Below, in pieces: positions 14,192-60,047 of a stretch of DNA of 64,000 nucleotides. A program made the translations under genes and the position numbers. The notes below the pieces were generated by a model. It was not told the DNA's origin, did no database searches, and saw only the letters and a list, made by a program, of their open reading frames with translations. Source of the stretch: an uncultured Oscillospiraceae bacterium (GTDB lineage Bacteria; Bacillota; Clostridia; Oscillospirales; Oscillospiraceae). The stretch is taken from contig CANRNU010000001.1 in assembly GCA_947632005.1 (NCBI GenBank), positions 1 through 64,000 on the forward strand, given 5' to 3'. The stretch's first letter is position 1, and each line of letters begins with the position of its first letter.

Positions 14192-15661
14192 TCAGATCAC
14201 GATGCAAATGAGACTGTAGCCGCCGTCATTGACCAGCCGCTGGATGGTGGACTGCAGGCGCTTGCGGATGTTGGGCGGCATACGCTGCAGCTTGCTGGTC
14301 AGCCCCTCTTCCGCGATGTCATAGAGGGATTTTCCAAAGATGTTGGACTCCCAGATGCGGTTGATGTCCCCGTCGAAGCCCTGCAGGAGGAAGCTCACGA
14401 TCTGCTCCGATGCCTTCTCCCCTCCCACCGCCGGGGAGACCTCGGTCTCCACTTGGGTGCGGAACAGGTGGATGGCGGGAGCGCTGGCCTTCAGGCGCAC
14501 ACTGTACCGCCCGCCTTTGCTGATGATCTGGGGTTCCTGTAGCTCCATCTCCTCCGGGCCGGGCATGATGATGCCGTAACCGGTCTCCCGGGCCTGGGCC
14601 AGGGCCTGATGGACATGGTCATACTCCGTTTTTACGCTCTTCAGACTCCGCAGTAGCTCCATCAGGTCCCCGTCGTCCCGGATGTCAAACCCGGACTGCT
14701 CGCTGATGGTCTGGTAGTACAGGGACTGCTCCAACTCGATGACGGCGGTGGCCGTGCCGCTGCCGGCCTGGGCGGAGGAGATACGCGCGGCGCTGATGAG
14801 CTCGCTTTGGGATAGGCTCTCCACGCAGGCGTAGGCGTCCTGCAGGGCATCCATATTCTTTCCGGCGGTCAGGAGCATGTCGTACAGCGTCTTTTTCAGC
14901 TCGCAGTCCTCCGGCAATGCCTCTGCCCAGGTGGGCAGCCAAAGGCTCAGCTCATTCAGCGGGAACTGGAACAGCACCGCCTTCATGACCGCGTGAATGT
15001 CCGCATCCGTGAGCTCCTGGCAGTTGAGCGCCACACAGGGGATCTTGTACCGCTCGGACAGCTCCGCCGCCAGGGCCGTGGCCGCGGCCCCCTCCGGGTC
15101 GGCGCTGTTGACCACCACGGCAAAAGGCTTGCCGATGTCCACAAGCTCCCGGATGACACGTTCTTCCGCTTGGAGATAGTTCTCCCGGGGTATCTCCCCG
15201 AAGCTGCCGTCGGTGGTGATAACGAGGCCGATGGTGGAGTGCTCGGCGATGACCTTTCGAGTCCCCTCCTCCGCCGCCTGGGTCATGGGGATCTCATGGT
15301 CGTACCAGGGTGTGGTGACCAGGCGTTCTGCGCCGTCCTCATACAGGCCCTCCACCCCAGGCACAATATAGCCCACACAGTCGATGAGCCGCACCTTGGC
15401 GTTGGTGCCGCCCATGGAGATATCCACGGCCTCCTCCGGCACGAACTTCGGCTCGGCGGTCATGATGGTCCGGCCGGAGCCGGACTGGGGCAGCTCGTCG
15501 CGGGCCCGTTCCTTTCGGTACATGTTTTCAATGTTGGGGATGACCTGGGTCTCCATGAACCGCTTGATAAAGGTCGATTTCCCCGTCCGCACCGGCCCGA
15601 CGACGCCCAGATAGATGTCGCCGTCCGTCCTGCGGGCAATATCCTCATAGATGCTGTCCAC
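14192..15661 (-). CDS. spoIVA: Stage IV sporulation protein A
   Basis: A 489-residue ATPase that polymerises on the forespore surface and forms the coat basement layer. Walker A is GPVRTGKST at residues 22-30, and the family-typical C-terminal end is intact. An upstream in-frame TTG (15676) exists, but GTG at 15661 has GGAGGG with 7-nt spacing and gives the normal SpoIVA N-terminus, so I start there. It lies downstream of vegetative trmK-nif3; a sigma-E-like promoter nested in a hairpin hiding its ribosome binding site lies just upstream. A sipL-like partner is at 58280-59782. Confidence 0.97.
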   Translation of the reverse strand: MDSIYEDIARRTDGDIYLGVVGPVRTGKSTFIKRFMETQVIPNIENMYRKERARDELPQSGSGRTIMTAEPKFVPEEAVDISMGGTNAKVRLIDCVGYIVPGVEGLYEDGAERLVTTPWYDHEIPMTQAAEEGTRKVIAEHSTIGLVITTDGSFGEIPRENYLQAEERVIRELVDIGKPFAVVVNSADPEGAAATALAAELSERYKIPCVALNCQELTDADIHAVMKAVLFQFPLNELSLWLPTWAEALPEDCELKKTLYDMLLTAGKNMDALQDAYACVESLSQSELISAARISSAQAGSGTATAVIELEQSLYYQTISEQSGFDIRDDGDLMELLRSLKSVKTEYDHVHQALAQARETGYGIIMPGPEEMELQEPQIISKGGRYSVRLKASAPAIHLFRTQVETEVSPAVGGEKASEQIVSFLLQGFDGDINRIWESNIFGKSLYDIAEEGLTSKLQRMPPNIRKRLQSTIQRLVNDGGYSLICIVI

Positions 15662-15666
15662 AACGT

Positions 15667-15710
15667 ATCCCTCCAAGGCATGTTTGCTTAAGCATACGCC
15701 CTGGAGGGAT
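15667..15710 (-). promoter_or_regulatory. Hairpin hiding the spoIVA ribosome binding site
   Basis: On the minus strand ATCCCTCCA (15702-15710) is perfectly complementary to TGGAGGGAT (15667-15675), which contains the ribosome binding site. The 5-prime arm lies between the -35 and -10 of the sigma-E-like promoter, so only RNA read through from nif3 contains it. A 10-bp palindrome, TGCTTAAGCA, lies in the loop (15685-15694). Confidence 0.65.
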
Positions 15711-15720
15711 GGTTTATGAC
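15691..15720 (-). promoter_or_regulatory. Sigma-E-like promoter of spoIVA
   Basis: GTCATAAA, 14-nt spacer, CGTATGCT. The -35 matches the sigma-E consensus well and the -10 partly. The predicted start is near 15684, giving a leader of about 23 nt. Confidence 0.55.
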
Positions 15721-15724
15721 AGAT

Positions 15725-16492
15725 TTAATAAAACTGCGCCGTCTGACGGTGGACCTGAGAGATACGCACATCCACGCCGGGAAAGGCGCCGCGAAGCCAC
15801 TCCGTCAGCACCGGGACCACCACGTTTTCCGTGCAGAAATGGTCGGCGTCGATGAGGTTGACGCCGAGCCATGCGGCCTCCAGGAACTGGCTGTATTTCA
15901 CATCCGCAGTCACCAGGGTGTCGCATCCCGCCGACGCGGCCAGGCCGATGTCACCGCCGCCGGAGCCGCCGCACACCGCCAGATGCTTCACCAGGCGGCC
16001 CGCGTCGTGATAGCGCAGGCCATTGACGCCCAGCGCCTGCTTCACAAAGGGCAAAAACCGGTCGAACGGCACTTCCTCCGGCAGCTGACCGATACGCCCG
16101 ATGCCGGTCTCGGGCTCCAGGGCCGCCTCCGCATCGGCGCCCAGCGCGGCCATCAGCGCGTCGTTTACGCCGCCTGCCGCCGCATCCAGGTTGGTGTGCA
16201 TGCAGATGGCGGCAATGCCCCTCTCTGCCAGAGACAGGACCCGGCTGCCGTTATGGTCGCCGTCCGTGACGGACTTCAGCTCAAAGAAGATGGGGTGATG
16301 ACTTACGATCAGTTCCGCCCCCAGATCCGCCGCCTCCGCAATGACCGGCTCTGTCACGTCCAGCGCCGTCACGATCCGAGTGACTGTCCGGTCCTGCCGG
16401 CCCACCAGCAGTCCCACATTGTCAAAGTCCATCTTGGACGCCACCGGGGCCTTCTCATTCAAGAACGCGAAAACGTCATGTACAGTCGGCAT
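15725..16492 (-). CDS. Nif3-like dinuclear metal centre protein
   Basis: A 255-residue member of the Nif3/YqfO family, which forms toroidal hexamers with two bound metals. Metal ligands are visible in IVSHHPIFF and in MHTNLDAA, and the C-terminal His/Glu pair lies in DADHFCTEN. The ATG at 16492 has a strong AAAGGAGG and lies 17 nt inside trmK; the same trmK-nif3 pairing is known in Bacillus. The cellular function of the family is unsettled. Confidence 0.93.
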   Translation of the reverse strand: MPTVHDVFAFLNEKAPVASKMDFDNVGLLVGRQDRTVTRIVTALDVTEPVIAEAADLGAELIVSHHPIFFELKSVTDGDHNGSRVLSLAERGIAAICMHTNLDAAAGGVNDALMAALGADAEAALEPETGIGRIGQLPEEVPFDRFLPFVKQALGVNGLRYHDAGRLVKHLAVCGGSGGGDIGLAASAGCDTLVTADVKYSQFLEAAWLGVNLIDADHFCTENVVVPVLTEWLRGAFPGVDVRISQVHRQTAQFY

Positions 16493-17147
16493 GGCAAAAC
16501 CTCCTTTTGATATCGTCATAGTCTGCCAGCAGCGCCGCGGCCTCGCCGTCATAGGGCGCGGCCTTGGCCGTCCGGGCGCGGGCATCTTCCAAATATTTCA
16601 AGAAAAGCGGGTCCCCGCCTATCTGTGCCAGCCGGCCCAGATGCAGCTCCGCTTCCGAATAGGCCGGGGACGGCCCCCCTGCTGCGGTCAGGATGGGATA
16701 GATGCGCCCGGCGTCCTCCACAAGCTTCTCCGTACGGATGCTGAAGCCATTCCCGATGAGCCAGCGGCGAAGGTCTCCCCTCTTGCTCTGAGGCTCCAGG
16801 ATGAGGAGCGTCCCCGCCCCGGTCCAGGACGCGGCGGCCAGGATGGAGATCATGGTCTCCCCGCCCATCCCGGCCAGGATGACCGTGTCCCCATCCTCGG
16901 GGCCGATGCCGGTCAGGCCGTCGGTCTGCAGGAGTCTGACGCGGTCTCCGGTGCCGGTCCTTTTAACCAGTGCGGCGGCGCTCTTCAGGGGGCCCGGGCG
17001 GATGTCCGAGGCCAGAGCGCGCCGGGCACGCCCGGATTGGACCAGCCAGACCGGGACCATGGCATGATCGGTGCCCACATCGATGACGGAGGCGCCCAGG
17101 GGGACCAGCCCGGCCACTGCCGCGAGCCGCGGTGAAAGATGTATCAT
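16476..17147 (-). CDS. trmK: tRNA (adenine(22)-N1)-methyltransferase
   Basis: A 223-residue SAM-dependent methyltransferase for A22 of tRNA. The SAM site is VIDVGTDHAMVP and the catalytic loop region is LAGMGGETM. No ribosome binding site precedes the ATG; instead the T-rich tail of a terminator ends 4 nt before it, so its own promoter is unclear. It overlaps nif3 by 17 nt. Confidence 0.93.
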   Translation of the reverse strand: MIHLSPRLAAVAGLVPLGASVIDVGTDHAMVPVWLVQSGRARRALASDIRPGPLKSAAALVKRTGTGDRVRLLQTDGLTGIGPEDGDTVILAGMGGETMISILAAASWTGAGTLLILEPQSKRGDLRRWLIGNGFSIRTEKLVEDAGRIYPILTAAGGPSPAYSEAELHLGRLAQIGGDPLFLKYLEDARARTAKAAPYDGEAAALLADYDDIKRRFCHADCT

Positions 17148-17151
17148 GGCA

Positions 17152-17184
17152 AAATAAAAAAGACGGCGGGTCTCACCCGCCGTC
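17152..17184 (-). terminator. Terminator of the DUF1858 gene
   Basis: A perfect 10-bp GC-rich stem, GACGGCGGGT / ACCCGCCGTC (17162-17171 and 17175-17184), followed on the minus strand by a TTTTTTATTTT tract that ends just before the trmK start codon. Confidence 0.88.
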
Positions 17185-17192
17185 CTTTGGTC

Positions 17193-17399: not shown

Positions 17400-17434
17400 T
17401 TTATAAACCTCCTAAACTCGTTCACGATGACCTT

Positions 17435-28270: not shown

Positions 28271-28957
28271 TCAGCCGTCAAGACGGCCCCGGAGCTTTTC
28301 CAGGGCCTTTTTTTCGATACGCGATACATAGGAGCGGGAGATGCCGATGATCTTGGCCACCTCCCGCTGGGGCATGGGCGGCTGGCCGCTGAGGCCGTAG
28401 CGCAGGCGGATGACCTCCGCCTCCCGGCCCTCGAGGGCCGTATCCACGGCCCTGCGCACCTGTTCCACAGCCTCCCGCCGGGACAGCTCCTCCAGCATAT
28501 CCTGGTCACAGGAGATGGTGTCCTGCAGGGCGAGCCCCTCCCCCTCGCCGTCTGTGTCCAGCGCATCGGACAGGGACACGTCCCCAGCCGATTTCTTCTG
28601 GCCGCGAAAGTGCATGAGGATCTCGTTTTCAATGCATTTGGACGCGTAGGTCGCCAGGCGCACGCCCTTGTCCGGACGGTAGGTGGACACGCCCTTGATA
28701 AGGCCAATGGTGCCGATGGACACCAGGTCCTCCGCGTCGGCGCTGGTGGTGTAGTATTTCTTGATGATGTGCATCACCAGGCGCAGATTGTGTTCTATCA
28801 GTACGTTTCTGGCCTCCATATCCCCCTGGAGGGCCCGCTGGATATACTCCTGCTCCTCCTGTGCCTTCAGCGGTCGGGGGAAGGACGAGGCGTTGTCCCC
28901 CAGCCGGAGCATCAGCATGGCGCTGGACACCAGGAGCATGAATGTCGCGGAAAGCAT
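28271..28957 (-). CDS. sigK: RNA polymerase sporulation sigma factor SigK
   Basis: A 228-residue late mother-cell sigma factor. The first 20 or so residues are hydrophobic (MLSATFMLLVSSAMLML), matching the inhibitory pro-sequence removed by SpoIVFB, followed by FPRPLKAQEE as in pro-SigK. Regions 2 and 4 are complete in one open frame, with no skin-type interruption. ATG at 28957 has AGAGGTG at about 9-nt spacing; a GTG at 28969 is the alternative. A CATAGTCT box 22 nt upstream could be a -10, but no matching -35 was found. Confidence 0.93.
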   Translation of the reverse strand: MLSATFMLLVSSAMLMLRLGDNASSFPRPLKAQEEQEYIQRALQGDMEARNVLIEHNLRLVMHIIKKYYTTSADAEDLVSIGTIGLIKGVSTYRPDKGVRLATYASKCIENEILMHFRGQKKSAGDVSLSDALDTDGEGEGLALQDTISCDQDMLEELSRREAVEQVRRAVDTALEGREAEVIRLRYGLSGQPPMPQREVAKIIGISRSYVSRIEKKALEKLRGRLDG

Positions 28958-29023
28958 AGCCCATATCACCTCTCAAGGCAGACTATGCCGGGACCGTTTG
29001 TCCTGATTCGGCTTTTTGCGCGC

Positions 29024-32664: not shown

Positions 32665-34509
32665 TCAGAGCAACTCCAGCACCCCAAACGCATTGGAAAT
32701 CTCTGCCTGGAGGGCAGCCCAGTGCATCCTGAGGATATCGTAGTAGTTTTTGTCCTTTTTCAGGAAGTTGGTGGCAGTAAGCGTAGAGTCATAGTTACTG
32801 GCAATGGAATAGCTGGTGATACCGGCGTTAATGATGGCAATAAACAGCTTGTCCAGCACGGAATCGTACAAGTCCTTATCGGCGAACACATGCGGAGGCA
32901 TGATGTAATTAAACCCCTCAATGCGGGTGAAAATGCTGTTCAGCGTATCCCCGGAAGAATCGGAGCGGGCGGCTGCGAATACTTCATGCATGTCCTGATC
33001 CGTAAGGTTTTGCTGACGATAGCGGGAGGCAAAAGCCGTAAAGGCAAGGCAGATCGTGCGGGCGTTATGGGCAAACGAGATGCGTGTGCCGGCGTCTGGC
33101 ATAGTGGCGTTTTCCCGGTCAAAGCGCTGTTGGAAGACTTTTCTGAAATAGTTGTCAATGTACAGAAGCTCTTTGCATATTCCCGCGATCTGGGCCTGGT
33201 CCCCGTTAAACACAGGATCATAGTACTTGCTCAGATAAAGGGACGACGGCTTTGCCCGGCTGGCGCAGGGAGCCTGAAATATGGCCGCCAGGCAGAGCTT
33301 ACCGATTTCAACGAGGTCTGTATTGAGGTAAGGCGTTCGATACGCAGAGGGCACAACCTCGCCCCGTTTCGTCTGGTAGAAGACGCCGACCTCCCGCATG
33401 GCCTGTGCAAAGCGAACCTGCTCGGGGGAGTTTGCCTTCAGGTCCACAGACTTGATTGCCTTCTGGGAGTTTGTTGCTTTTGCGATCTCCAGGCTGAACG
33501 CGTTCTTCTCATCCTCAGAACCGCCGGGCGTTTCAATGATCTTGCACGGAAGATACAGATCGCTGGAATCGTTGATGTATGCGCTCTTGTGCAGCATATA
33601 TGTGGTCTGTCCGCCGTTAACGATGGAAAAGTTGCGCATCTTTACTTCTTTTCCGTCAATCTCAAACTGTTCACAGATGATGGTGATGCCGTTGTTCTTG
33701 AGCCAGAATGCCTCCGGATTGGTGGCGATGGTCTCAGCAATCCCCTTGTCGATCTCCCTGCCGGCGATGTGATATCGAAGATTTCGGGAAAGGAGGTTTG
33801 TGTTGTGCTGGGCATACAGCTGCTTGATGGAGTACGCGGACACATTCACAATGGCGGCGTTTTCTCCGTATAGCAGATAGTTGTCCGCCTCGTCGATGCG
33901 GATTTTTCCGCTCTCCACCGTTGGCCGCCGGGATTCGGATTCCTTGATCTCCTCAACAATATCGCTGCCGAACAGGATGGATATCTCAAACATCGAAGAA
34001 TCCGCAAATTGCTCCCGAAACTTCCGGGTGATTATGTCCCGCCGGATACCGTTTTGGGGAGCGCTGGTGTAGAAAACAAAGTGGATTTTCGACTCGTTCC
34101 CCACCTCCGAGTTCAGCGTCAGAAACCGGCGCTGCACCGTCGTGTTCACCTGCTCATAATGCCCCCGGATCATATCCTTGTAGAACAGGGCCATTTTCAG
34201 CATGGCGTTCAAAACGTCCTCATACGATATCTCTCTGTAGAATTTCGACTGCCCGATGACAAGGTCGGCCCCATCCGAATTTGGGTCGCTGAGAAGAATG
34301 TCCACCCCTCCGTCATACTGCCCGTCGACAATGATGTCCACATAGTCCGCTTCATTCAGAACAAGCGCCGGATTCTTGTAGAAATTGGACTTTACGCACA
34401 GCGCAGAAAAGACATATTCATCCGAGCGGCTGCGAAGCAGCGCAGAGTTCTCTTTCAGGGATTTGATCTTGCTCACAATAAAGTCGTAAGCTCTAGTATC
34501 AGTTGGCAT
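32665..34509 (-). CDS. AIPR family protein (phage abortive-infection type)
   Basis: A 614-residue member of the AIPR family, known from abortive infection and phage resistance loci. The central block with NNGITIICEQ and IVNGGQTTYML is the family core. Near the N-terminus Asp70 (YDGGVDILL) and QSK at 87-89 (LVIGQSKF) form a PD-(D/E)xK-like nuclease pattern. ATG at 34509 follows GAGGAGAG; the longer frame upstream runs through comF. The gene is clearly less GC-rich than its neighbours and stands between comF and mreB, suggesting lateral gain. No methylase or partner gene is present. Confidence 0.88.
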   Translation of the reverse strand: MPTDTRAYDFIVSKIKSLKENSALLRSRSDEYVFSALCVKSNFYKNPALVLNEADYVDIIVDGQYDGGVDILLSDPNSDGADLVIGQSKFYREISYEDVLNAMLKMALFYKDMIRGHYEQVNTTVQRRFLTLNSEVGNESKIHFVFYTSAPQNGIRRDIITRKFREQFADSSMFEISILFGSDIVEEIKESESRRPTVESGKIRIDEADNYLLYGENAAIVNVSAYSIKQLYAQHNTNLLSRNLRYHIAGREIDKGIAETIATNPEAFWLKNNGITIICEQFEIDGKEVKMRNFSIVNGGQTTYMLHKSAYINDSSDLYLPCKIIETPGGSEDEKNAFSLEIAKATNSQKAIKSVDLKANSPEQVRFAQAMREVGVFYQTKRGEVVPSAYRTPYLNTDLVEIGKLCLAAIFQAPCASRAKPSSLYLSKYYDPVFNGDQAQIAGICKELLYIDNYFRKVFQQRFDRENATMPDAGTRISFAHNARTICLAFTAFASRYRQQNLTDQDMHEVFAAARSDSSGDTLNSIFTRIEGFNYIMPPHVFADKDLYDSVLDKLFIAIINAGITSYSIASNYDSTLTATNFLKKDKNYYDILRMHWAALQAEISNAFGVLELL

Positions 34510-34574
34510 GGTACTGTCTCTCCTCTGTTTCTCTGGCACAGTTCTGTTGCCCTGCGATATAAAAAGCAGATCCT

Positions 34575-35231
34575 CTATCTGGTGGTGGCAAGGGTGGCGC
34601 ACCGCACGTCCTCCGCGCCTGCCAGCAGCAGGGTCTTGGCGCACTCGGAGAGCGTGGCGCCGGTGGTCACGATATCATCGATGAGCAAAATGCGCTTGCC
34701 GCGGATGAGCTCCGGGTCGGTGACCCGATAGGCCCCGGCGATGTTGGCCCGGCGCTTTTCCGGCTCGCCGGTGAGGGACTGGGGCTGGATGCCCCGCCTC
34801 TTTCGCAGGACGCAGACCGGTTCGCGCATGAGCCGCTTTCCTGCGTTCCGGGCCAGCAGCTCCGCCTGATCGTACCCGCGGCTCCGCCGGCGTCCCGGGT
34901 CCAGCGGCACCCAGGAGAGGATGTCGTATTCCCCTTCCAGGTCCTCGTAGATGGATGCGGCCAGAAGCTCTCCGAACACTGGCGCGTAGGCCTGAACGCC
35001 GTTGAATTTATAGCGGTGGATGGCATCCCGCACGTCGTTTTCATAGTAGAGCGCGGAGACGCACTCGGAGAAGAAGTCTCCCTTCCGCCGGCCGCCGTTT
35101 TCCGTTTTGGGCAGGGCCGCGGCGCACTTATCGCAGATCCTGGGCGGCCCGGGCGGCAGAAAATCCCGGCACATGACGCATCTGGCGGGATAGATCAAGT
35201 CCAGCAGCCATTCGGTGAGCTTATGTACCAT
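34575..35231 (-). CDS. comF: ComF family protein (phosphoribosyltransferase fold)
   Basis: A 218-residue protein with an N-terminal zinc ribbon (CVMCRDFLPPGPPRICDKC) and a phosphoribosyltransferase fold with the PRPP loop LLIDDIVTTGAT. In competent bacteria ComFC takes part in processing incoming single-stranded DNA. ATG at 35231 overlaps recD2 by 11 nt. Confidence 0.94.
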   Translation of the reverse strand: MVHKLTEWLLDLIYPARCVMCRDFLPPGPPRICDKCAAALPKTENGGRRKGDFFSECVSALYYENDVRDAIHRYKFNGVQAYAPVFGELLAASIYEDLEGEYDILSWVPLDPGRRRSRGYDQAELLARNAGKRLMREPVCVLRKRRGIQPQSLTGEPEKRRANIAGAYRVTDPELIRGKRILLIDDIVTTGATLSECAKTLLLAGAEDVRCATLATTR

Positions 35232-48160: not shown

Positions 48161-49402
48161 ATGGCAGAAAAACTTGTTGGCGCCTGCATCATCGGCCAGT
48201 CCGGCGGTCCCACGTCCGTCATCAACGCCAGTGCCTACGGAGCCATCAGCGCGGCTTTGGCCGCGGAGGAGATCACCCAGGTCCTGGGCGCCGATCACGG
48301 CATCACCGGCGTGCTGAGCGACAAGCTCTACGACATGGGGCAGGAAGATCCCCAGGAGCTGGCCTATCTGAAGAACACCCCCGCCTCCGAGCTGGGCTCC
48401 TGCCGCTATAAGCTGGCCGAGCCCGAGACGGATGACACCGACTATAAGCGCATCCTGGAGGTCTTCCAGAAGCACAATGTCCGTTACTTCTTCTACAACG
48501 GCGGCAACGACTCCATGGACACCTGCGACAAGATCAGCCGCTTTATGGCCAAGTCCGGCTGGGAGTGCCGGGTCATGGGCATCCCCAAGACCATCGACAA
48601 CGACCTCTGGGGCACCGACCACTGCCCCGGCTTCGCCTCCGCGGCCAAGTATATCGCCACCAGCGCCATGGAGGTGTCCAAGGACGGACGCGTCTATCCC
48701 ACCGGTCAGGTGACCATCATGGAGATCATGGGCCGCCACGCCGGATGGCTGGCCGCCTCCGCCGCGCTGGCCACCCACTTTGGCGCCGGTCCCGACCTGG
48801 TGTACCTGCCCGAGGTGGACTTCGACCAGGAGGCGTTCCTGAACGATGTGGAGCGCATCTATAAACAGAAGCGCACCTGCCTGGTAGCCGTGTCCGAGGG
48901 TCTGCACTATGCTGACGGCACCTTCGTGTCCGAGGCCAAGACCAGCGCCACCGACGGCTTTGGCCACGCCCAGCTGGGCGGTCTGGCCTCCCGTCTGGCC
49001 GAGATGGTCAAAGAGCGCACCGGCGCCAAGGTCCGTCCCATCGAGCTGAGCCTGCTGCAGCGCTGCGGCGCGCACCTGGCCTCCGCCACCGACCTGGAGG
49101 AAGCCGAGATGGCCGGCCGCAAGGCGGTGGAGGCCGCCGTCGCCGGCGAGACCGGTAAGATGGTCGCCTTTGAGCGCAGCTACGACAAGATCGGGCAGTA
49201 TGTCTGCAACTATGTCCTCCTGCCCCTGACCTCCGTGGCCAACGCGGAGAAGAAGGTCCCCATGGAGTGGATCACCCCGGAGCACAACTTCGTCACCGAC
49301 GATTTCATCGACTACCTGCTGCCCCTCATCCAGGGCGAGCCGGAGCGTCCCACGGAGAACTCCATGCCCCGCTATGCCAAGCTCAAGAAGGTCCTGGCGT
49401 AA
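48161..49402 (+). CDS. pfp: 6-phosphofructokinase, pyrophosphate-dependent type
   Basis: A 413-residue phosphofructokinase. The motif GGNDSMDT (Asp where ATP enzymes have Gly) and Lys in IPKTIDND point to PPi rather than ATP as phosphate donor. The substrate loop is MGRHAGWLA. The ribosome binding site is GGAGG. It pairs with fba on the other strand. The nearest T-run terminator is the hairpin at 49727, which also carries the ribosome binding site of cotJ. Confidence 0.94.
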   Translation: MAEKLVGACIIGQSGGPTSVINASAYGAISAALAAEEITQVLGADHGITGVLSDKLYDMGQEDPQELAYLKNTPASELGSCRYKLAEPETDDTDYKRILEVFQKHNVRYFFYNGGNDSMDTCDKISRFMAKSGWECRVMGIPKTIDNDLWGTDHCPGFASAAKYIATSAMEVSKDGRVYPTGQVTIMEIMGRHAGWLAASAALATHFGAGPDLVYLPEVDFDQEAFLNDVERIYKQKRTCLVAVSEGLHYADGTFVSEAKTSATDGFGHAQLGGLASRLAEMVKERTGAKVRPIELSLLQRCGAHLASATDLEEAEMAGRKAVEAAVAGETGKMVAFERSYDKIGQYVCNYVLLPLTSVANAEKKVPMEWITPEHNFVTDDFIDYLLPLIQGEPERPTENSMPRYAKLKKVLA

Positions 49403-49685
49403 AGCGCTTCCCTGTCTCGTCCTCTGCGTCGGGCTTCTGGCCGGATGCTCATGGAGAGATGGTATGGAGACCCTTCGATGGGCGCTTGAGGACACATCAG
49501 ATCATGCCGCTGCTGTTCCGGGGACTCCTTCCCCGGAGCCGGCAGCGGCTGTTTCTGCGGCTCCCCGTCCTGCTGCTGTGCCTTCGTCACAAGCGGAAAA
49601 TGGACATCGCGCAAATGATCCTCGGATCATTTGCTGTCAAACGTGTCGTTTGGCGGCAAAAACCTTCGTTTTCGCCTTGCGATAA
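49374..49685 (+). CDS. Doubtful lipoprotein-like ORF
   Basis: A 103-codon frame that begins inside the end of pfp. It reads as a lipoprotein signal (KALPCLVLCVGLLAGC, lipobox LAGC at about residues 22-25), then a Pro/Ala-rich linker. There is no good ribosome binding site, and the last 25 codons run through a hairpin (49611-49634) and look non-coding. It may be a remnant or a chance frame. Confidence 0.22.
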   Translation: MPSSRRSWRKALPCLVLCVGLLAGCSWRDGMETLRWALEDTSDHAAAVPGTPSPEPAAAVSAAPRPAAVPSSQAENGHRANDPRIICCQTCRLAAKTFVFALR

Positions 49686-49726
49686 TCATTATACCCTTGG
49701 CATGACCGCCCGCGATAACAACACGC
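49403..49726. other. Intergenic region between pfp and cotJ
   Basis: No secure gene. It holds the end of the doubtful lipoprotein-like frame, a perfect 10-bp hairpin with loop CTCG (49611-49634), a smaller hairpin CAAACG-TGT-CGTTTG just after it, and an AT-richer stretch before the cotJ hairpin. The length suggests either an untranslated tail of pfp or a decayed gene. Confidence 0.5.
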
Positions 49727-49744
49727 TCCCCCTTTGCATAGTAT
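49718..49744 (+). promoter_or_regulatory. Sigma-K-like promoter of cotJ
   Basis: AAC at 49717-49719, then 17 nt, then CATAGTAT (49737-49744). This fits the sigma-K pattern AC-N17-CATAnnnT. The predicted start is near 49751, inside the hairpin. Confidence 0.5.
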
Positions 49745-49770
49745 GACATGCAAAGGGGGAAATTTTTTTG
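49727..49770 (+). terminator. Terminator hairpin that carries the cotJ ribosome binding site
   Basis: A perfect 13-bp stem, TCCCCCTTTGCAT (49727-49739) with ATGCAAAGGGGGA (49748-49760), followed by AATTTTTTT. It is a textbook terminator for read-through from pfp. Its 3-prime arm is also the AAAGGGGG ribosome binding site of cotJ, and the T run ends in the TTG start codon. Confidence 0.85.
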
Positions 49771-50214
49771 CAGAACAACGATACCTGTACCTATAAAGAA
49801 GGGCCTCTGCCCTCCTGCGCGCCGCTGGCTGTGCCCATGCTGGCCGCCCAGCAGAGCAGCGCGCCGGCCTATGACAGCGCGGACGCCCTGGCCAAGGGCA
49901 CGCTGTTCCCCGGCCTGGACCTGCCCTTCATGGATTATATCGCCAATGGCCCGGTAGAGAACACGCCGCTGGCGGAACTGATGGCCTTGGATTTCGTCTG
50001 CCAGGAGCTGGCGCTGTATCTGGACACCCACCCCGGCGACAAGGAGGCCTTCAAGACCTGGAAGAGCTTCAGCGCTCTGGCAAAAGAGGGCCGCAAGCGC
50101 TATGTAGAGATGTGCGGGCCTGTGACCCGCGCGGACACGGCTATGTTCGACTCCTGGGTCTGGCCCGAGGACCCCTGGCCCTGGAATGCGGGCGGAAAGG
50201 GTGGTAAAAAGTAA
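49768..50214 (+). CDS. CotJA-CotJB fusion spore coat protein
   Basis: A 148-residue coat protein joining two usually separate proteins. Residues about 15-60 (LPSCAPLAVP, then GTLFPGLDLPFM) match CotJA; residues about 68-140 (MALDFVCQELALYLDTHPGD and EDPWPWN) match CotJB. The start is TTG at 49768 behind AAAGGGGG with 7-nt spacing; no later ATG keeps the CotJA part. Its stop overlaps the CotJC start (TAATG). Expressed in the mother cell if the sigma-K-like promoter is real. Confidence 0.88.
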   Translation: MQNNDTCTYKEGPLPSCAPLAVPMLAAQQSSAPAYDSADALAKGTLFPGLDLPFMDYIANGPVENTPLAELMALDFVCQELALYLDTHPGDKEAFKTWKSFSALAKEGRKRYVEMCGPVTRADTAMFDSWVWPEDPWPWNAGGKGGKK

Positions 50215-52845: not shown

Positions 52846-53505
52846 TCATCTCTCCAAGTTCATATAGCTGCTGGGCACCTGGCCCACGATGACAGTCTCC
52901 GATACCAGGATCTCTGTCTGCACCGACGTGTCCATGGTCTGCCATGGCAGCATGCATGACAGCTGGATGTCTAGGTCCAGGAAGAGCTGGTGGCGGGTCT
53001 GGTTGATGCCCGCGCTGGTGATCTCACTGCGAAAGCTCGCCGTGCTGGAGGTGAGCACCGTCACATGCACCGTGAGAGAGGGCCCCCGGTTCATGAGAAG
53101 CGCGCTGCCGAACAGGTTGGCCAGGGGGATTTCCACGGCTGCCGTTCCCTGCTCTGTGGCAGCCACGGCCCGGGACAGCACCTCAGCCGACAGGGTGTTG
53201 ATGGCCGTCACATCGGCGCTGACCGCCGACACGCCGCCGCTGCCGTCGTGCTCCAGCACCACCAGGCTGTCCGCCCCGAACCGGCTGTCCGCCATCACAT
53301 CCTTGACGATCTGGTTGACCTGCACCACCACCTGGTCTCTGGCGGCGGATATGGCATAATCCGTGATCATACGGCGCAGCGCCGACCCCAGAAAAACGGT
53401 GATGAGCACGGCTGCTGCCGCCAGCAGCGCGCACAGCGTCAGCCTGGCAGAGCGCCGGGCATCCGGGTCCAGTCCTGCCCGCCTTGGCCACCGTCTTGCC
53501 GGCAT
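52846..53505 (-). CDS. yunB: Sporulation protein YunB
   Basis: A 219-residue protein with one N-terminal membrane segment (about 20-42) and an extracytoplasmic domain; the core contains IPLANLFGSALLMNRGP, typical of YunB. In Bacillus it is made in the mother cell under sigma-E. ATG at 53505 follows AAGGGGGTGG. It lies between the second M42 peptidase gene and ligA on the same strand. A sigma-E-like promoter and a hairpin around the ribosome binding site precede it. Confidence 0.92.
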   Translation of the reverse strand: MPARRWPRRAGLDPDARRSARLTLCALLAAAAVLITVFLGSALRRMITDYAISAARDQVVVQVNQIVKDVMADSRFGADSLVVLEHDGSGGVSAVSADVTAINTLSAEVLSRAVAATEQGTAAVEIPLANLFGSALLMNRGPSLTVHVTVLTSSTASFRSEITSAGINQTRHQLFLDLDIQLSCMLPWQTMDTSVQTEILVSETVIVGQVPSSYMNLER

Positions 53506-53513
53506 ACCACCAC

Positions 53514-53525: not shown

Positions 53526-53555
53526 AACATATGCCGGAAAGCCAGCCCGTATGAC
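53526..53555 (-). promoter_or_regulatory. Sigma-E-like promoter of yunB
   Basis: GTCATACG, 14-nt spacer, CATATGTT on the minus strand, close to the sigma-E consensus. The predicted start is near 53519, giving a leader of about 14 nt. Confidence 0.68.
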
Positions 53556-53556: not shown

Positions 53557-54579
53557 TTATTCTGCCATATTCTCCAAAAAGAGCCTGGCCAGCTTATACT
53601 GGTCCTCGCACTCGCTGATCTTGGCCACGCTGGCCGGGGAATGGATGTTCCGCACCGGTACGGACAGAGCTGCGGTCTGCACGCCGATCCCGCTGCGCTG
53701 GATGGAGGAGCCATCCGTGCCGCCGGCAATGGCGGTCTTCGTCTGCCAGGGGATGCCGTTGTCCCCGGCCAGCCGGCCCAGAAGCCGGCACAGTTCCCGG
53801 TCATAGATGGTCTGCCGGTCCATGAATGGGATCGCGATGCCCTGTCCCAGGGCGCAGACCCTCTCGGCTCCCTCCCGGCCCGGCAGGTCGGCTGCGGTGG
53901 TGGTCTCCAGCACCAGGGCCACATCCGGTTCGATGTTCTCCGCCGCGATGGCAGAGCCCCGGCAGCCCACCTCCTCCTGGACCGTGAAGGCAAACCAGCA
54001 GTCACAGGGCAGTTCGCCCTCCAAGAGCTCCAGCATCGCCGCGCAGCCCACCCGGTCGTCGATGGCCTTGGCCTTCACATAGCCGTCTCCAAAGCGGACC
54101 ACTGTGTCGTCAAAGGCAGCCAGGTCGCCGATGGCGACCGCCTCTTCCGCTTCCTCCCGGCTCCCTGCGCCGATGTCGATATACATCTCCCGCATGGCCG
54201 GCACGGTCTTTCTTTGTTCCTGGGTGGTCAGGTGGACGGCCTTGCAGCCCACCACCCCCAGCACCCGCTGCGGTCCCACATGCACCCGCTTGCCCAGCAG
54301 AACCCGCCGGTCGATGCCGCCGGCCTGGTCGAACCGCAGATATCCCTCGGCGGTGATGTCGGTGACGATGAGCCCCACCTCATCCATGTGAGCGCAGAGC
54401 AGGACCCGCCGTTCCGGGGCCTTCGCGCCCCGTTTGAAGACCATCAGGTTCCCCATGGGGTCGGTGCGTATCTCGTCCGCGTATGGCATGACCCGTTCCA
54501 GGATATAGTCCCGGACCTCATCCTCGCCGCCGGAGACGCCGTCCAGACAGCACAGGGTCTCCATTGTGTCCAGCATCAT
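53557..54579 (-). CDS. M42 family metallopeptidase (first copy)
   Basis: A 340-residue aminopeptidase of the M42 family, which forms large tetrahedral complexes. Metal ligands and the catalytic Glu are in CAHMDEVGLIV, AIDDRVGC and VQEEVGCRG. Start ATG at 54579 with GGAGG; a second ATG follows directly. It lies 2 nt after its paralogue and shares the murD-M42-M42 transcript. Confidence 0.93.
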   Translation of the reverse strand: MMLDTMETLCCLDGVSGGEDEVRDYILERVMPYADEIRTDPMGNLMVFKRGAKAPERRVLLCAHMDEVGLIVTDITAEGYLRFDQAGGIDRRVLLGKRVHVGPQRVLGVVGCKAVHLTTQEQRKTVPAMREMYIDIGAGSREEAEEAVAIGDLAAFDDTVVRFGDGYVKAKAIDDRVGCAAMLELLEGELPCDCWFAFTVQEEVGCRGSAIAAENIEPDVALVLETTTAADLPGREGAERVCALGQGIAIPFMDRQTIYDRELCRLLGRLAGDNGIPWQTKTAIAGGTDGSSIQRSGIGVQTAALSVPVRNIHSPASVAKISECEDQYKLARLFLENMAE

Positions 54580-54581
54580 CG

Positions 54582-55604
54582 TCACACCTCCATACGCTCT
54601 ACATAGGCCGCGAGCAGTTCCACACAGGCAGCCATATCTTCCGTGTCCACGACCTCCACCGGCGTATGCATGTATTTCAGCGGCAGAGATATGAGCGCCG
54701 TCGCAACGCCGGTGCGGGAGATCTGGATCGCCTCGGCGTTGGTACCGCTGTTGCCGCCGGGCTCCGCCTTCCGCTGGCAGGGGATGCCCAGCTCGTCCGC
54801 CAGGGCCAGCAGCTCCATGGCCATGGGCCGGTGGATGTTGGGGCCGATGCTGACAGCTGGACCTTTTCCACACTGGCAGACCACCCGCGGGGCGTCCGGC
54901 GTCCGTCCGTGGGTCACATCCACCACCAGCGCCGCGTGCGGGCGGATCCCCCAGGCCGCCACCTTGGCGCCCCGGTGCCCCACTTCCTCCTGGGTGCTCA
55001 CCAGACAGCACACATCCACCTTGAGCCGGCGCAGGCACAGCTGCTCGAACGCCTTGATGATGACGGCTGCGCAGGCGCGGTCATCCAGAGCCTTGCCGCA
55101 AAGCTGTTCCCCGCCCAGCTCCTCGCAGGCGCTCACATACACCACCGGCGTGCCTGGCGGGACCAGTTTTTCCGCCTGTTCCTGCTCCAGGCCCACGTCA
55201 ATGTAGAGCTTGTCCGCCGGGATGGTCTGTCCCTTCTCCTCCTCGGTGAGCAAATGGGGCGGCAGCGCGGCGATGACGCCGAACAGAGGCGGGTCCGCCA
55301 GCACCCGCACCTCCCGGGCCGGGAGCATCCGCTGGTCCACGCCCCCCAGACTGGCAAAGGACAGAAATCCGTTCTTTGCCCCGGTCACGACCAGACCGAT
55401 CTCATCCATGTGGGCGTCCAGCAGCACCGTCTTCGCCCCGGGCACACCGCAGCGCTTGAAGGCCATCACATTGCCCATCACGTCGGTCCTCACCTCGTCG
55501 GCAAAGGGATGCAGATAGTTGGCAATGTACTCGCACACCGGCTGTTCAAAGCCGGATGGGCCGGCCAGGCCCGACAGCTGCCGGGCCAGTTCTACCAGTT
55601 GCAT
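54582..55604 (-). CDS. M42 family metallopeptidase (second copy)
   Basis: A 340-residue paralogue of the preceding peptidase with the same length and metal motifs: DAHMDEIGLVV, ALDDRACA and STQEEVGHRG. Two adjacent, divergent copies suggest hetero-oligomers or different peptide preferences. It follows murD by 6 nt. Confidence 0.93.
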   Translation of the reverse strand: MQLVELARQLSGLAGPSGFEQPVCEYIANYLHPFADEVRTDVMGNVMAFKRCGVPGAKTVLLDAHMDEIGLVVTGAKNGFLSFASLGGVDQRMLPAREVRVLADPPLFGVIAALPPHLLTEEEKGQTIPADKLYIDVGLEQEQAEKLVPPGTPVVYVSACEELGGEQLCGKALDDRACAAVIIKAFEQLCLRRLKVDVCCLVSTQEEVGHRGAKVAAWGIRPHAALVVDVTHGRTPDAPRVVCQCGKGPAVSIGPNIHRPMAMELLALADELGIPCQRKAEPGGNSGTNAEAIQISRTGVATALISLPLKYMHTPVEVVDTEDMAACVELLAAYVERMEV

Positions 55605-56999: not shown

Positions 57000-57020
57000 A
57001 TGCACCTCGCGATCAAAGCC

Positions 57021-57049: not shown

Positions 57050-57076
57050 GAAACGAATCCCTACAAGAAGGTATAA

Positions 57077-57105
57077 AAAGAGACAGGAATCATTCCTGTC
57101 TCTTT
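57077..57105 (-). terminator. Terminator of rnpB
   Basis: A 13-bp stem (57077-57089 with 57093-57105) followed on the minus strand by TTTTTATAC; it lies just after the 3-prime end of the RNA. Confidence 0.9.
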
Positions 57106-57111
57106 GATAAT

Positions 57112-57460
57112 TGAGTTTTCCTGTAAGCCGGATTCTGTTAAAAATGGCCATCTATCTAGGCGCCGCGTTGCCGCTGCGCTCCAGCCACCTCCCCGGGGAG
57201 ACCGGGCCGGTCTGTGTTCCCCTCCACGGTGTTGCTCCGGATAGAGTTTACAGCAGCGCTCTGTCGCCAGGGCGCCGGGTGGTCTCTTACACCGCCTTTC
57301 CACCCTTACCGCGCAAAGAGCGCGGCGGTCTGTTTCTGTTGCACTCGTCCTGATGTCGCCATCGGCGGGCGTTACCCGTTATCCTTGCCCTATGGAGCCC
57401 GGACTTTCCTCACGCACAGCCTTTCGGCTCATGCCCGCGGCCATTCAGAAAACTCAGTTT
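57112..57460 (-). ncRNA. rnpB: RNase P RNA
   Basis: The catalytic RNA of RNase P. Read on the minus strand it has the universal 5-prime core GAGGAAAGTCCGGGCT (57396-57411) and the 3-prime core ACAGAATCCGGCTTAC (57123-57138); outer ends TGAGTTTTC and GAAAACTCA pair as helix P1. Its length of about 345 nt is normal. It begins about 20 nt after the yebC stop with no separate promoter visible, so it may be processed from a yebC transcript. Its modulator gene rnpM is also in the window. Confidence 0.95.
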
Positions 57461-57476
57461 TGACCTTCCTGGACGC

Positions 57477-58214
57477 TCAGTCCATATTCTCCCAGTTGTG
57501 CCAGACGTTCTGCACGTCGTCGTTGTCCTCGAACACGTCCAGCATCTTCTGCATGTTTTTCCGATCGCCTTCGGCGGTGAGGGTCACATAGGTCTGGGGG
57601 ACCATCTCCTCCTGGGCGGAATCCAGCTTGTAGCCGTGAGCGGTCATATAGTCCGCCACCGCGGCCACGTCCTCCGGCTTGGTATAGAGGGTGAACACGC
57701 CCTCCTCGGTCTCCATATCGTCGGCCCCGGCCTCCATGGCGTCCATGAGCACGGTGTCCTCGTCCAGGTCCCCGTCCTCGTTGTCCACCACGATGACGCC
57801 CTTCCGGTCAAAGGACCAGCTCACGCAGTTGGTGGGGCCCATGTTGCCGTTATATTTGTCGAAGCAGTGACGCACCTCACTGGCGGTGCGGTTGCGGTTA
57901 TCGGTCATGGCCTCCACGATGACGGCCACGCCGCTGGGGCCGTAGCCCTCGTAGGTGACAGACTCAAAGTTGGACGTATCGCCGCTGCCCAGAGCCTTGT
58001 CGATGGTGCGCTTGATGTTGTCGTTGGGCATGTTGGCGGCCTTGGCCTTGGCAATGACGGCGGCCAGACGCATATTGTTCTTCGGGTCGCCGCTGCCGCC
58101 CTCCTTCACCGCCACGATCATCTCACGGGCGATCTTGGTAAAGGCCTGGGCACGCTTGGCGTCGGCAGCGCCTTTTGTCTTCTGTATATTGTGCCATTTG
58201 GAATGTCCGGACAT
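57477..58214 (-). CDS. YebC/PmpR family protein
   Basis: A 245-residue protein of the YebC family, starting MSGHSKWHNIQ. Family members were described as transcription regulators and, more recently, as translation factors easing proline-rich stalls. All three domains are present. The ribosome binding site is CAGGGGGA. A strong promoter lies at 58250-58278. rnpB follows directly. Confidence 0.95.
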   Translation of the reverse strand: MSGHSKWHNIQKTKGAADAKRAQAFTKIAREMIVAVKEGGSGDPKNNMRLAAVIAKAKAANMPNDNIKRTIDKALGSGDTSNFESVTYEGYGPSGVAVIVEAMTDNRNRTASEVRHCFDKYNGNMGPTNCVSWSFDRKGVIVVDNEDGDLDEDTVLMDAMEAGADDMETEEGVFTLYTKPEDVAAVADYMTAHGYKLDSAQEEMVPQTYVTLTAEGDRKNMQKMLDVFEDNDDVQNVWHNWENMD

Positions 58215-58249
58215 GGTAGTTATCCCCCTGTATCGTTACGTTACAGGTC

Positions 58250-58278
58250 ATTGTAACACAATTTTCTTCCAATATCAA
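58250..58278 (-). promoter_or_regulatory. Sigma-A promoter of yebC
   Basis: TTGATA, 17-nt spacer, TACAAT on the minus strand. The leader holds a small hairpin, CCTGTA with TACAGG, next to the ribosome binding site. Confidence 0.8.
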
Positions 58279-58279
58279 C

Positions 58280-59782
58280 CTATCTGGCCTTGGGAATTAA
58301 AAGAAGTCCGGACTGCCGGTCCCCGTTGGCGGCGGCGATGGCCTCCACGGTAGAACGGTATTTCTTGGCAACGGCCCACATGTCCGCGCCCGGGTCCAGC
58401 CGCACCAGCCAGATGGACGGCGCCGCAGGCGCCGCGGCCCAGCCTTCCGCATCCTCCTCCATGCCCGCGACGGCGGCAATGGTCCGGCTCGTGACGGCCA
58501 CGGCGTCCATCTGCAGCACGGCCCGGATGTCCAGCGCGCCGGCTGCTGCCCCGCAGTATACGTCCGCCGCGGTGACAGATACGTTCTGCAGGGCGGTCCC
58601 CTCGGGGAGGTCCGTGGTGAATTCCGCCGCGAGCCTGCACCGGGCTGTGGTACAGCCGCCGTCCTCCTGCTGCAGGACAGCCCGGATGTTCACGGTGGTC
58701 CTGACGGCTGCTTCCTCCACCGTGACGCCGCCCACGGCGGCAGAGACGCACAGCACCTCTCCTGCGCCGCCCATCAGCTCCGCGCTGCCCGTCACCGTCT
58801 GACGCATGGACAGCGGCTGGGCCGCGCTCACCAGGGTCATCTCCTCCGTCCGGCCCATGAGCAGGGTCCGGTTGCTGTAAAGGTCCGCGATGTAGCTGAT
58901 CTGGCGGATCTGGCGGCATACCGCCTGGGCCACCAGATGCAGCTCTGCCTTCAGCTTTCCGTCCGCATCCTGCCGCTCCGGCAGGTCGATATACGCCCCG
59001 GTGAACATCAGCGTTATCCCCGCCGTCACGTCGGCGGCGTCGGTGCCCACCTCCATGATCTGGGAAAACTCCGTCTCATACCGGGCGGACCAGACCTTTC
59101 CCTCCTGGCCGCCCAGCAGCAGCGAGGTCCGGAGCCTGCCCCGGAACACCACCTTGCCGCTGACGTACTTGACATCCTCCAGGCTGGCGTCCACCCGCTG
59201 CATCACGATCCGATCCGGCCCGGTGCAGCCGGCGGGAAGCGGGTACTCGTCCGTCACCACAAAGGTCTTCTCCCGCACGTCTGCCACCGCCGCCATGGCG
59301 GCAGTCTTCGTCAGGATGTGGATGGAAGCGTTCTCCTCTTCCAGTCCCGACGCGATCTCCACGCATCGTTTCTGGTATACGGTGGCCTCACAGTCCACGT
59401 CCGCCCGGACAGACAGCTTCCGGGAGTTGACCATCCGGCCGTCGATGGCCCGGAGCCGCAGCCTGGCCACCGTCTGGCAGTCCTGGTCCGCGCCGGGAGC
59501 GTCCATGCGCACCTCGATGGGCATGACCAGGGATATGCTCTGTATGCCCCCGCCGCCCTCCGGCATATACATCACCGATACGCTCAGCGAGGCGGCAAGC
59601 GCCACCGCTCCCGCCTCGGTCTCCTTGCTTCGCAGCGTGATGACGCCGTCCGCGTCGATGACGGACGCCACGTCGGGCATGGCGTCCGGGACGATGCTCT
59701 CCGCCGTAAAATCCCGGCTCAGGCTCCCGGTCCACACCGGAGCCAGATGCTCGTACTGTTCCTTTTTCAGGGCTGTCTCCAT
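58280..59782 (-). CDS. sipL: SPOCS (DUF3794) and LysM domain protein, SipL-like
   Basis: A 500-residue protein with repeated SPOCS/DUF3794 domains (about 1-440) and a C-terminal LysM-like domain (LVRLDPGADMWAVAKKYRST at about 456-475). This is the layout of Clostridioides SipL, which binds SpoIVA through its LysM domain to assemble the coat; spoIVA is also in this window. ATG at 59782 follows CAAGGAG. A strong sigma-E-like promoter lies just upstream. Orthology to SipL is inferred from architecture. Confidence 0.85.
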   Translation of the reverse strand: METALKKEQYEHLAPVWTGSLSRDFTAESIVPDAMPDVASVIDADGVITLRSKETEAGAVALAASLSVSVMYMPEGGGGIQSISLVMPIEVRMDAPGADQDCQTVARLRLRAIDGRMVNSRKLSVRADVDCEATVYQKRCVEIASGLEEENASIHILTKTAAMAAVADVREKTFVVTDEYPLPAGCTGPDRIVMQRVDASLEDVKYVSGKVVFRGRLRTSLLLGGQEGKVWSARYETEFSQIMEVGTDAADVTAGITLMFTGAYIDLPERQDADGKLKAELHLVAQAVCRQIRQISYIADLYSNRTLLMGRTEEMTLVSAAQPLSMRQTVTGSAELMGGAGEVLCVSAAVGGVTVEEAAVRTTVNIRAVLQQEDGGCTTARCRLAAEFTTDLPEGTALQNVSVTAADVYCGAAAGALDIRAVLQMDAVAVTSRTIAAVAGMEEDAEGWAAAPAAPSIWLVRLDPGADMWAVAKKYRSTVEAIAAANGDRQSGLLLIPKAR

Positions 59783-59793
59783 GTTGCGCTCGC

Positions 59794-59819
59794 TCCTTGC
59801 ATGATTTTCTACGCAAGGA
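59794..59819 (-). promoter_or_regulatory. Hairpin hiding the ribosome binding site of the sipL-like gene
   Basis: TCCTTGC (59813-59819) pairs with GCAAGGA (59794-59800) on the minus strand; the latter contains the ribosome binding site. The 5-prime arm overlaps the -10 and lies upstream of the predicted start (about 59809). Confidence 0.6.
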
Positions 59820-59845
59820 TATGCCTGCCCGGCCCCGGATATGAC
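59816..59845 (-). promoter_or_regulatory. Sigma-E-like promoter of the sipL-like gene
   Basis: GTCATATC, 14-nt spacer, CATATCCT on the minus strand, the best sigma-E match in the window. It begins 4 nt after the stop of the small membrane protein gene. Confidence 0.75.
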
Positions 59846-59849
59846 AGAT

Positions 59850-60002
59850 TCAGCACCGCAGCAGCCAGACACCGCCGCAGACCAGCAGGAGCCCGCAGAC
59901 CAGCCACCAGAACCACGCGGGCAGTATCAGCGCCAGCAAAATGACCGTTCCCACACATACCGCCGCCCAGCCGCAGGCGCTTCCCCGTTTCCGTCTTCGC
60001 AT
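59850..60002 (-). CDS. Small membrane protein, 50 residues
   Basis: A short gene starting MRRRKRGSACGW and ending GGVWLLRC, found by reading the gap between rsgA and the sipL-like gene. A basic N-terminus is followed by two hydrophobic segments (about 13-29 and 31-48) with the motif PAWFWWL between them. The ATG at 60002 has GGGAGG with 8-nt spacing. It is probably a sporulation-associated inner membrane peptide, judged by its promoter and neighbour; no family function is known to me. Confidence 0.75.
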   Translation of the reverse strand: MRRRKRGSACGWAAVCVGTVILLALILPAWFWWLVCGLLLVCGGVWLLRC

Positions 60003-60007
60003 ACAAA

Positions 60008-60047
60008 CCGCCTCCCACCCATTCTATGGGCGGAAGGCGGCAAAGGT
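60008..60047 (-). promoter_or_regulatory. Sigma-K-like promoter inside a ribosome-site hairpin
   Basis: A 15-bp stem with two G-U pairs (60026-60040 with 60008-60022) and a 3-nt loop carries the ribosome binding site GGGAGG in its 3-prime arm. Across the loop lies CATAGAAT (60021-60028), with AC 17 nt upstream (60046-60047), a sigma-K-like pattern; a sigma-E -10 reading is also possible. The predicted start is near 60014-60016. Confidence 0.55.

Follow-up and report, generated by a model that had tools for sequence, protein, structure and literature searches.

Hairpins that enclose predicted sporulation promoters and may shield ribosome binding sites from read-through RNA in an uncultured Oscillospiraceae bacterium and its relatives

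What happens when RNA running out of a vegetative gene reaches a sporulation gene packed closely behind it? This question is raised by a 64,000-nucleotide (nt) stretch of DNA, hereafter the window, from an uncultured Oscillospiraceae bacterium (assembly GCA_947632005.1, contig CANRNU010000001.1, positions 1 to 64,000 of the forward strand). An initial annotation proposed that five loci in the window, spoIVA, cotJ, yunB, a sipL-like gene and the gene of a 50-residue membrane protein, carry a sporulation promoter within a hairpin that hides the ribosome binding site (RBS). All five hairpins are present by sequence and by folding. Their best explanation is that each is a shield against read-through, a reading that we hold to be probable. 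A mother-cell sporulation promoter would be fitted into the little space left by a co-directional gene upstream, with the DNA of its -10 element or of the preceding spacer complementary to the gene's own Shine-Dalgarno (SD) sequence or start codon. RNA running in from the upstream gene would contain both arms, fold and hide the RBS, whereas RNA made with sigma-E or sigma-K would begin 3' of the 5' arm, escape folding and be translated. The transcription starts and sigma factors are predictions, as are read-through itself and the block to translation (or transcription) in the cell.

To quantify the folds, the opening cost was computed as the free energy needed to open the SD and start codon in three RNAs: the long read-through RNA, the short one that begins at the predicted start, and one whose upstream sequence had been shuffled. 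The native cost was ranked among 300 shuffled upstreams per locus in the window, and among 60–300 shuffles across the analysis. At the five window loci, opening costs 10–21 kcal/mol in read-through RNA versus 0.7–6.5 kcal/mol from the predicted sporulation start. The long, short and mean shuffled values are 20.2, 4.9 and 9.1 kcal/mol for spoIVA (rank 0), 20.9, 6.5 and 9.4 for cotJ (rank 0), 15.4, 2.6 and 7.3 for yunB (rank 0.003), and 18.9, 0.7 and 6.6 for the 50-residue gene (rank 0). The sipL-like gene, at 10.4, 4.2 and 5.7 kcal/mol (rank 0.043), is marginal in the window alone. Wherever the start is placed from 2 to 8 nt beyond the -10 element, the cost stays at or below 7.3 kcal at all five loci. 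By folding, read-through RNA is shut and RNA from the predicted start free, as the initial annotation proposed.

Promoter calls rely on presumed consensus sequences for sigma-E and sigma-K; the scoring of SDs, the weights given to promoters and the choice of starts were hand-made. A common sigma-E-like promoter, GTCATA-N16-C(A/G)TAnnnT, with the same 16-base gap, precedes spoIVA, yunB and the sipL-like gene. For cotJ and the 50-residue gene, the sigma-K-like promoters match the presumed consensus weakly. The predicted starts fall downstream of the 5' arm at all five loci, as had been claimed. The promoter elements and hairpin arms are located as follows.

15715..15720, minus strand: sigma-E-like -35 of spoIVA (GTCATA; pattern match to the presumed consensus)
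15691..15698, minus strand: sigma-E-like -10 of spoIVA (CGTATGCT; pattern match)
15696..15710, minus strand: 5' arm of the spoIVA hairpin, within the promoter spacer and -10 (minimum free energy fold, z -6.65)
15667..15681, minus strand: 3' arm of the spoIVA hairpin, with the SD GGAGGG (minimum free energy fold, opening cost)
49727..49739, plus strand: 5' arm of the cotJ hairpin (fold, z -5.19)
49737..49745, plus strand: sigma-K-like -10 of cotJ (CATAGTATG; sequence, presumed consensus)
49748..49760, plus strand: 3' arm of the cotJ hairpin, with the SD AAAGGGGG (fold, opening cost)
49763..49769, plus strand: T7 tract 3' of the cotJ hairpin, with the TTG start codon (49768–49770) at its end (terminator-like score)
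53550..53555, minus strand: sigma-E-like -35 of yunB (pattern match)
53526..53533, minus strand: sigma-E-like -10 of yunB (CATATGTT; pattern match)
53530..53537, minus strand: 5' arm of yunB, CCGGCATA (sequence; alternative pairings in the fold)
53499..53506, minus strand: 3' arm of yunB, TATGCCGG, comprising the start codon and codons 2–3 (sequence, opening cost)
59840..59845, minus strand: sigma-E-like -35 of the sipL-like gene (pattern match)
59816..59823, minus strand: sigma-E-like -10 of the sipL-like gene (CATATCCT; pattern match)
59811..59819, minus strand: 5' arm of the sipL hairpin (fold, z -2.18)
59794..59802, minus strand: 3' arm of the sipL hairpin, with most of the SD AAGGAG (fold, opening cost)
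60026..60041, minus strand: 5' arm of the 50-residue gene hairpin (fold, z -5.95)
60020..60028, minus strand: sigma-K-like -10 of the 50-residue gene (CATAGAATG; sequence, presumed consensus)
60007..60022, minus strand: 3' arm of the 50-residue gene hairpin, with the SD GGGAGG (fold, opening cost)

The 3' arm, described initially as the RBS throughout, contains all or most of it at four loci; at yunB several pairings compete in the fold, and what is hidden is chiefly the start codon with codons 2–3, not the SD. Placement of all five genes behind vegetative genes also needs qualification. The sipL-like gene follows the 50-residue gene and not rsgA directly, and cotJ starts 365 nt past the stop of the phosphofructokinase gene (pfp) in the window, although it lies close behind pfp in two same-genus genomes. 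The more than 300 nt that separate pfp and cotJ in the window (49403–49726) are missing from these two genomes, where the hairpin closely follows pfp.

Is the arrangement more frequent than expected among relatives? Loci with a -10 within 60 nt were scored for whether they reach a rank of 0.05 or lower among shuffles. Eighty spoIVA loci were fetched (79 with a start), together with the 30 best family loci each for yunB, cotJ and sipL, which are not a random draw. No start was obtained for one yunB locus, and two sipL loci lacked a near promoter. A total of 121 spoIVA, yunB and sipL loci, the window's included and not independent of one another, were scored. Among loci with sigma-E scores of 16.5 or higher, rank 0.05 or lower is reached at 30/50 spoIVA, 16/23 yunB and 11/27 sipL loci (57/100 together); among those with lower scores, at 0/14, 2/6 and 1/1, respectively. 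Only 16 of 210 other gene starts, scored from 347 candidates, reach this rank, one of them a spoIVA that had leaked in. The family loci differ from the other genes with a Mann-Whitney p of 3e-22, kinship ignored. The excess over shuffled sequence and over other genes that the initial annotation predicted is therefore found.

In the two same-genus genomes, the leaders of cotJ, the 50-residue gene and sipL all rank at 0.02 or lower (6/6, 100 shuffles), with sipL at 0.00 of 100 shuffles in both. Relatives of the 50-residue gene, whose start codons were chosen by eye, are shielded in 8 of 18 family loci including the window's (Fisher p 1e-4).

Such hairpins might also arise by chance from G+C-rich DNA, from complementarity to the SD and from a CATA in the -10 element that complements TATG. 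The CATA/TATG complementarity is indeed inherent, and the window's sipL taken alone is near chance. When the promoter motifs were held fixed in the shuffle, however, 28/49 spoIVA and 14/23 yunB loci still passed, so that the built-in complement fails to explain these two genes; sipL, with only 3/21 passing, is left weak. Alignment of 11 close spoIVA relatives gave little information because the SD arm is invariant, and upstream and downstream pieces were swapped between loci in its place. Native pieces close more tightly than swapped ones at spoIVA (11.2 versus 7.1 kcal, n = 40, ten close kin excluded, p 5e-7), yunB (12.9 versus 8.0 kcal, n = 23, p 2e-6) and sipL (8.0 versus 5.8 kcal, n = 27, p 0.003). 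Because the excess survives the fixed motifs, the comparison with other genes and the swapped arms, chance is refuted for spoIVA and yunB and less firmly for sipL, and overall we regard it as very improbable.

The swap results also show co-variation of the arms, for which the initial annotation had asked as a test. Across fourteen lineage folds, the arm sequences vary by lineage yet stay complementary. For example, the arms are CGCCTCCGC and GCGGAGGCG at locus L027, CTCCTCCGGC and GCCGGAGGAG at L038, and TTTTTGCAT and ATGCAAAAA at yunB locus L107. The 50-residue gene of the same genus pairs GCTTCCCATCC with GGATGGGAGGC, arms unlike those in the window, and same-genus cotJ retains its stem close to the pfp stop. 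This variation bears on another idea, in which a regulator would bind the inverted repeats as DNA operators over the promoter. The repeats are palindromic and overlap promoters, as operators would; one regulator, however, would conserve its site, and here the sequence varies among the lineages folded and includes the gene's own SD or start codon. An operator function is accordingly most implausible.

The position of the arms provides further information. Where shielded spoIVA or yunB loci lie behind a near co-directional open reading frame (ORF), the pairing partner is upstream of the predicted start in 30/30, and its bases begin past the upstream stop codon in 27/30, by a median of 15 nt. A ribosome completing the upstream gene therefore need not melt the helix, an arrangement that favours a lock on read-through RNA over translational coupling. 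The same position speaks against a hairpin that is also present in the sporulation transcript and does no more than dampen its translation, like the small RBS hairpin of Bacillus subtilis sigG. Some loci have appreciable structure in the short RNA (11.4 and 11.1 kcal at yunB loci L085 and L102), but its mean opening cost (spoIVA 4.0, yunB 4.5 and sipL 3.2 versus 4.0 kcal for other genes) is far under that of the long RNA, and we consider dampening improbable.

The hairpins could also belong to the upstream gene as intrinsic terminators, fused by now with the promoter and RBS of the sporulation gene; they would then act on transcription, the hiding of the RBS being a by-product. A U-rich stretch does follow some of them. 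The T fraction of the spacer between SD and start is 0.44 in shielded versus 0.20 in unshielded spoIVA loci (controls 0.24), and 0.50 behind nif3 versus 0.20 behind sipL. It is likewise 0.46 versus 0.20 for the 50-residue gene and 0.41 versus 0.22 in an earlier set of loci matching a sigma-E pattern. The window's cotJ hairpin has a terminator-like score on both strands and leads into the T7 tract, at whose end the start codon lies. Unlike intrinsic terminators, however, these hairpins hold a promoter inside the stem and an RBS in the 3' arm, and yunB (0.34 versus 0.30) and sipL (0.24 versus 0.24) show little or no T excess. Among shielded loci, T-rich tails past the stem (at least four T in seven) occur in only 6/28 spoIVA, 3/7 50-residue, 2/15 yunB, 0/8 sipL and 1/9 pattern-set cases. 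Elsewhere the T's pair and extend the stem, for instance AAAAA with TTTTT at L360, and likewise in the same-genus 50-residue leaders. Same-genus cotJ keeps its stem and loses the T7 tract, and the window's spoIVA hairpin is not followed by a run of three T. T-rich spacers may reflect either terminators or an extended helix. Termination as the whole explanation appears rather unlikely to us. An exclusive choice between terminator and shield at the 50-residue gene was dropped as a claim; it is a tendency only, since L168 and L173 carry both by a crude test.

Termination may instead be combined with the shield. At some of the loci, namely spoIVA behind nif3, the 50-residue gene and the window's cotJ, a U-rich stretch lies past the SD arm, so that RNA arriving from upstream may also be terminated by this hairpin. 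We tentatively suggest, as a proposal about evenly balanced but leaning to the doubtful side, that Oscillospiraceae have repeatedly evolved a three-in-one insulator, with the promoter in the hairpin, the RBS hidden and termination where a U tract follows. With such an insulator, sporulation genes could sit within ~60 nt of vegetative genes and need no additional terminator.

Does the shield depend on what lies upstream? The orientation of upstream genes was determined by homology to NIF3 and SipL and, for some loci, by Pfam; calls from ORF length or codon G+C were dropped, having failed in G+C-rich loci. spoIVA is shielded in 16/18 loci directly behind nif3, in 0/18 behind the sporulation gene sipL and in 16/43 other contexts. 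Ten further co-directional upstream ORFs were run against Pfam, and six belong to shielded loci, which follow a histidine phosphatase, a GFO/IDH oxidoreductase, a response regulator, a pantothenate kinase, an epimerase and one unmatched ORF. In the window, cwlD lies behind spoIVA and is unshielded (rank 0.87), which fits the shield reading.

Several results weigh against the shield reading, in addition to the weak sipL result with fixed motifs. On the tree, the nif3 and sipL contexts fall on either side of a single branch, and the contrast counts as one independent pair; treating the two contexts as many independent observations was rejected for that reason. One locus 113 nt behind a SipL-like match (L276) is shielded, while four of the ten further co-directional loci fail the shield criterion (L048, L068, L071 and L079), and a locus 151 nt behind an alpha/beta hydrolase gene (L064) is unshielded. 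L071 comes from the cultivable Sporobacter termitidis, and its spoIVA leader ranks at 0.17 and 0.21 in two scorings. At six loci with Pfam-confirmed divergent neighbours (L018, L022, L026, L028, L055 and L065) a shield is not expected, and three reach rank 0.05. These three, L018, L022 and L026, have low opening costs (4.5, 8.1 and 3.6 kcal, respectively), and the stricter shield criterion leaves L022 alone. cotJ is shielded in 4/25 family loci including the window's (p 0.24). In the window, sigK lies ~60 nt behind a co-directional FGGY kinase gene and is unshielded (rank 0.22), which does not fit the shield reading. Beyond spoIVA, yunB and sipL, a minority of sigma-E promoters is shielded (13/52), a close co-directional upstream ORF gave no higher rate among the other sigma-E genes (3/12 versus 10/40), and a putative spoIIIAA cluster passes in 2/14 loci.

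The sigma-E counts derive from the following sets. A scan of the window's own genome for the sigma-E-like pattern common to spoIVA, yunB and sipL (gap 15–17) gave 8 matches versus 2 for the reversed control; it is unfit as a genome-wide test because promoters are too few, and family-wide pattern sets were used instead. In 200 family genomes, a strict pattern matched 82 places versus 17 for its reverse, and 64 of the 82 distinct promoters came with a usable start. Rank 0.05 was reached by 18/64, and the 13/52 left after removal of spoIVA, yunB and sipL compare with 16/210 controls (p 0.001). The earlier pattern set, which overlaps the strict one, gave 9/25, or 6/18 without these three genes. 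The putative spoIIIAA genes (loci L195 and L222, and the cluster above) have a clear sigma-E-like promoter, several with GGACA or GGACG in the spacer, and are mostly unshielded.

In a sample across the phylum, 70 of 107 spoIVA places were read, 69 of them with a start. Rank 0.05 was reached by 4/15 loci with a near sigma-E-like promoter, one of them L276 from the window's own family, and by 2/54 loci without such a promoter. Among spoIVA loci, then, the shield belongs mainly to the family. That it is general among sporulation genes, as initially suggested, is not supported by these counts or by the results for other sigma-E promoters, cotJ and sigK; the first interpretation is partly supported, being largely right in kind and too wide in scope.

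Comparable devices have been described singly. The helix of phage T4 gene e (lysozyme), and also of soc, 49 and I-TevI, hides the RBS, with a late promoter within the region encoding its 5' strand; the long early RNA of gene e is closed and the late RNA open, and this case is demonstrated (PMC3014915). Both T4 gene e and, by prediction, the window loci put the promoter at the 5' strand of an RBS-hiding helix, and by folding the SD and start codon are hidden in the longer RNA in the window and in the family. T4 uses the helix in a demonstrated phage early/late switch, whereas here the helices are predicted, belong to chromosomal sporulation genes behind vegetative neighbours and have many lineage-specific arms.

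Among sporulation genes, B. subtilis sigG (spoIIIG) has a hairpin of 20 bp or more proposed to block translation of read-through RNA, which cannot form in RNA from its own promoter, as stated in PMC5942855, where Masuda 1988 and Sun 1991 are cited. The initial view that the design lacks precedent among sporulation genes is therefore not upheld. As with sigG, the folds here are closed in read-through RNA and open in own-promoter RNA, and the arms co-vary. sigG is a single gene with a sigma-F/G promoter behind a sporulation operon, whereas the present cases comprise several genes in another bacterial family with sigma-E- or sigma-K-like promoters behind vegetative genes. In the listed titles and openings of abstracts from the open-licence PMC literature, subscription journals being outside this scope, the device was not found as a recurrent feature of sporulation genes. 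With the single-case strategy already known (demonstrated in T4, proposed for sigG), what would be new is its recurrent use as an insulator.

If the shield reading is correct, this strategy becomes a recurrent insulation device in a large, little-studied group of gut spore-formers, and it would account for the silence of a developmental programme whose genes, in compact genomes, have housekeeping genes closely upstream. The RNA level alone in metatranscriptomes would then mis-report the expression of sporulation genes, because read-through RNA would be silent. It would also offer a sequence-level route to predicting developmental promoters in uncultured bacteria.

The source assembly comprises 2.32 Mb in 90 contigs and is 77.6% complete; the window has ~62% G+C. 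Of the spoIVA loci with a titled record, the closest are from uncultured Oscillospiraceae, with a top identity of 89%. Pfam confirms spoIVA, cotJA/B, yunB, the gene with the SPOCS domain, nif3, the phosphofructokinase gene, the M42 peptidases and rsgA. The genes concerned are listed below.

14192..15661, minus strand: spoIVA, with a GTG start at 15661 (Pfam; start set by comparison with relatives)
15725..16585, minus strand: nif3, co-directional vegetative neighbour of spoIVA (Pfam)
48161..49402, plus strand: phosphofructokinase gene, pfp (Pfam PFK)
49768..50214, plus strand: cotJA-cotJB in a single reading frame (Pfam)
52846..53505, minus strand: yunB (Pfam)
53557..55038, minus strand: M42 peptidase ORF, co-directional neighbour of yunB (Pfam)
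58280..59782, minus strand: sipL-like gene with a SPOCS domain (Pfam)
59850..60002, minus strand: 50-residue membrane protein gene (position shared with similar small genes, chosen by eye, in 18 family loci including the window's)
60049..60939, minus strand: rsgA, co-directional neighbour of the 50-residue gene (Pfam)

A Mn-catalase gene (cotJC), likewise confirmed by Pfam, accompanies cotJA/B in the window, and in many relatives one tblastn stretch covers both cotJA and cotJB. In many genomes of the family, small genes that resemble the 50-residue gene by eye occupy the interval from rsgA to sipL (loci L150–L178). A second tiny gene (MKIVVVKSPK-like) is often located 3' of them in relatives; none was seen in the window. 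The best NCBIfam matches of two further window genes are sigK and cwlD, the latter below the curated cut-off. The sigK-like gene is uninterrupted (28271–28969, minus strand); shortly upstream of it lie a GGACAAAC stretch and CATAGTCT. An Rfam scan of the window at the gathering score found RNase P RNA only (class A, 57108–57456, minus strand), with no riboswitch or other Rfam family at the hairpins. An AIPR-domain gene (32665–34644, minus strand) adjoins a mreB-like gene and has a codon G+C below that of its neighbours. Between spoIVA and cwlD (14134–14165, minus strand), a terminator-like hairpin encloses a promoter-like GTATAATGG and runs into T5.

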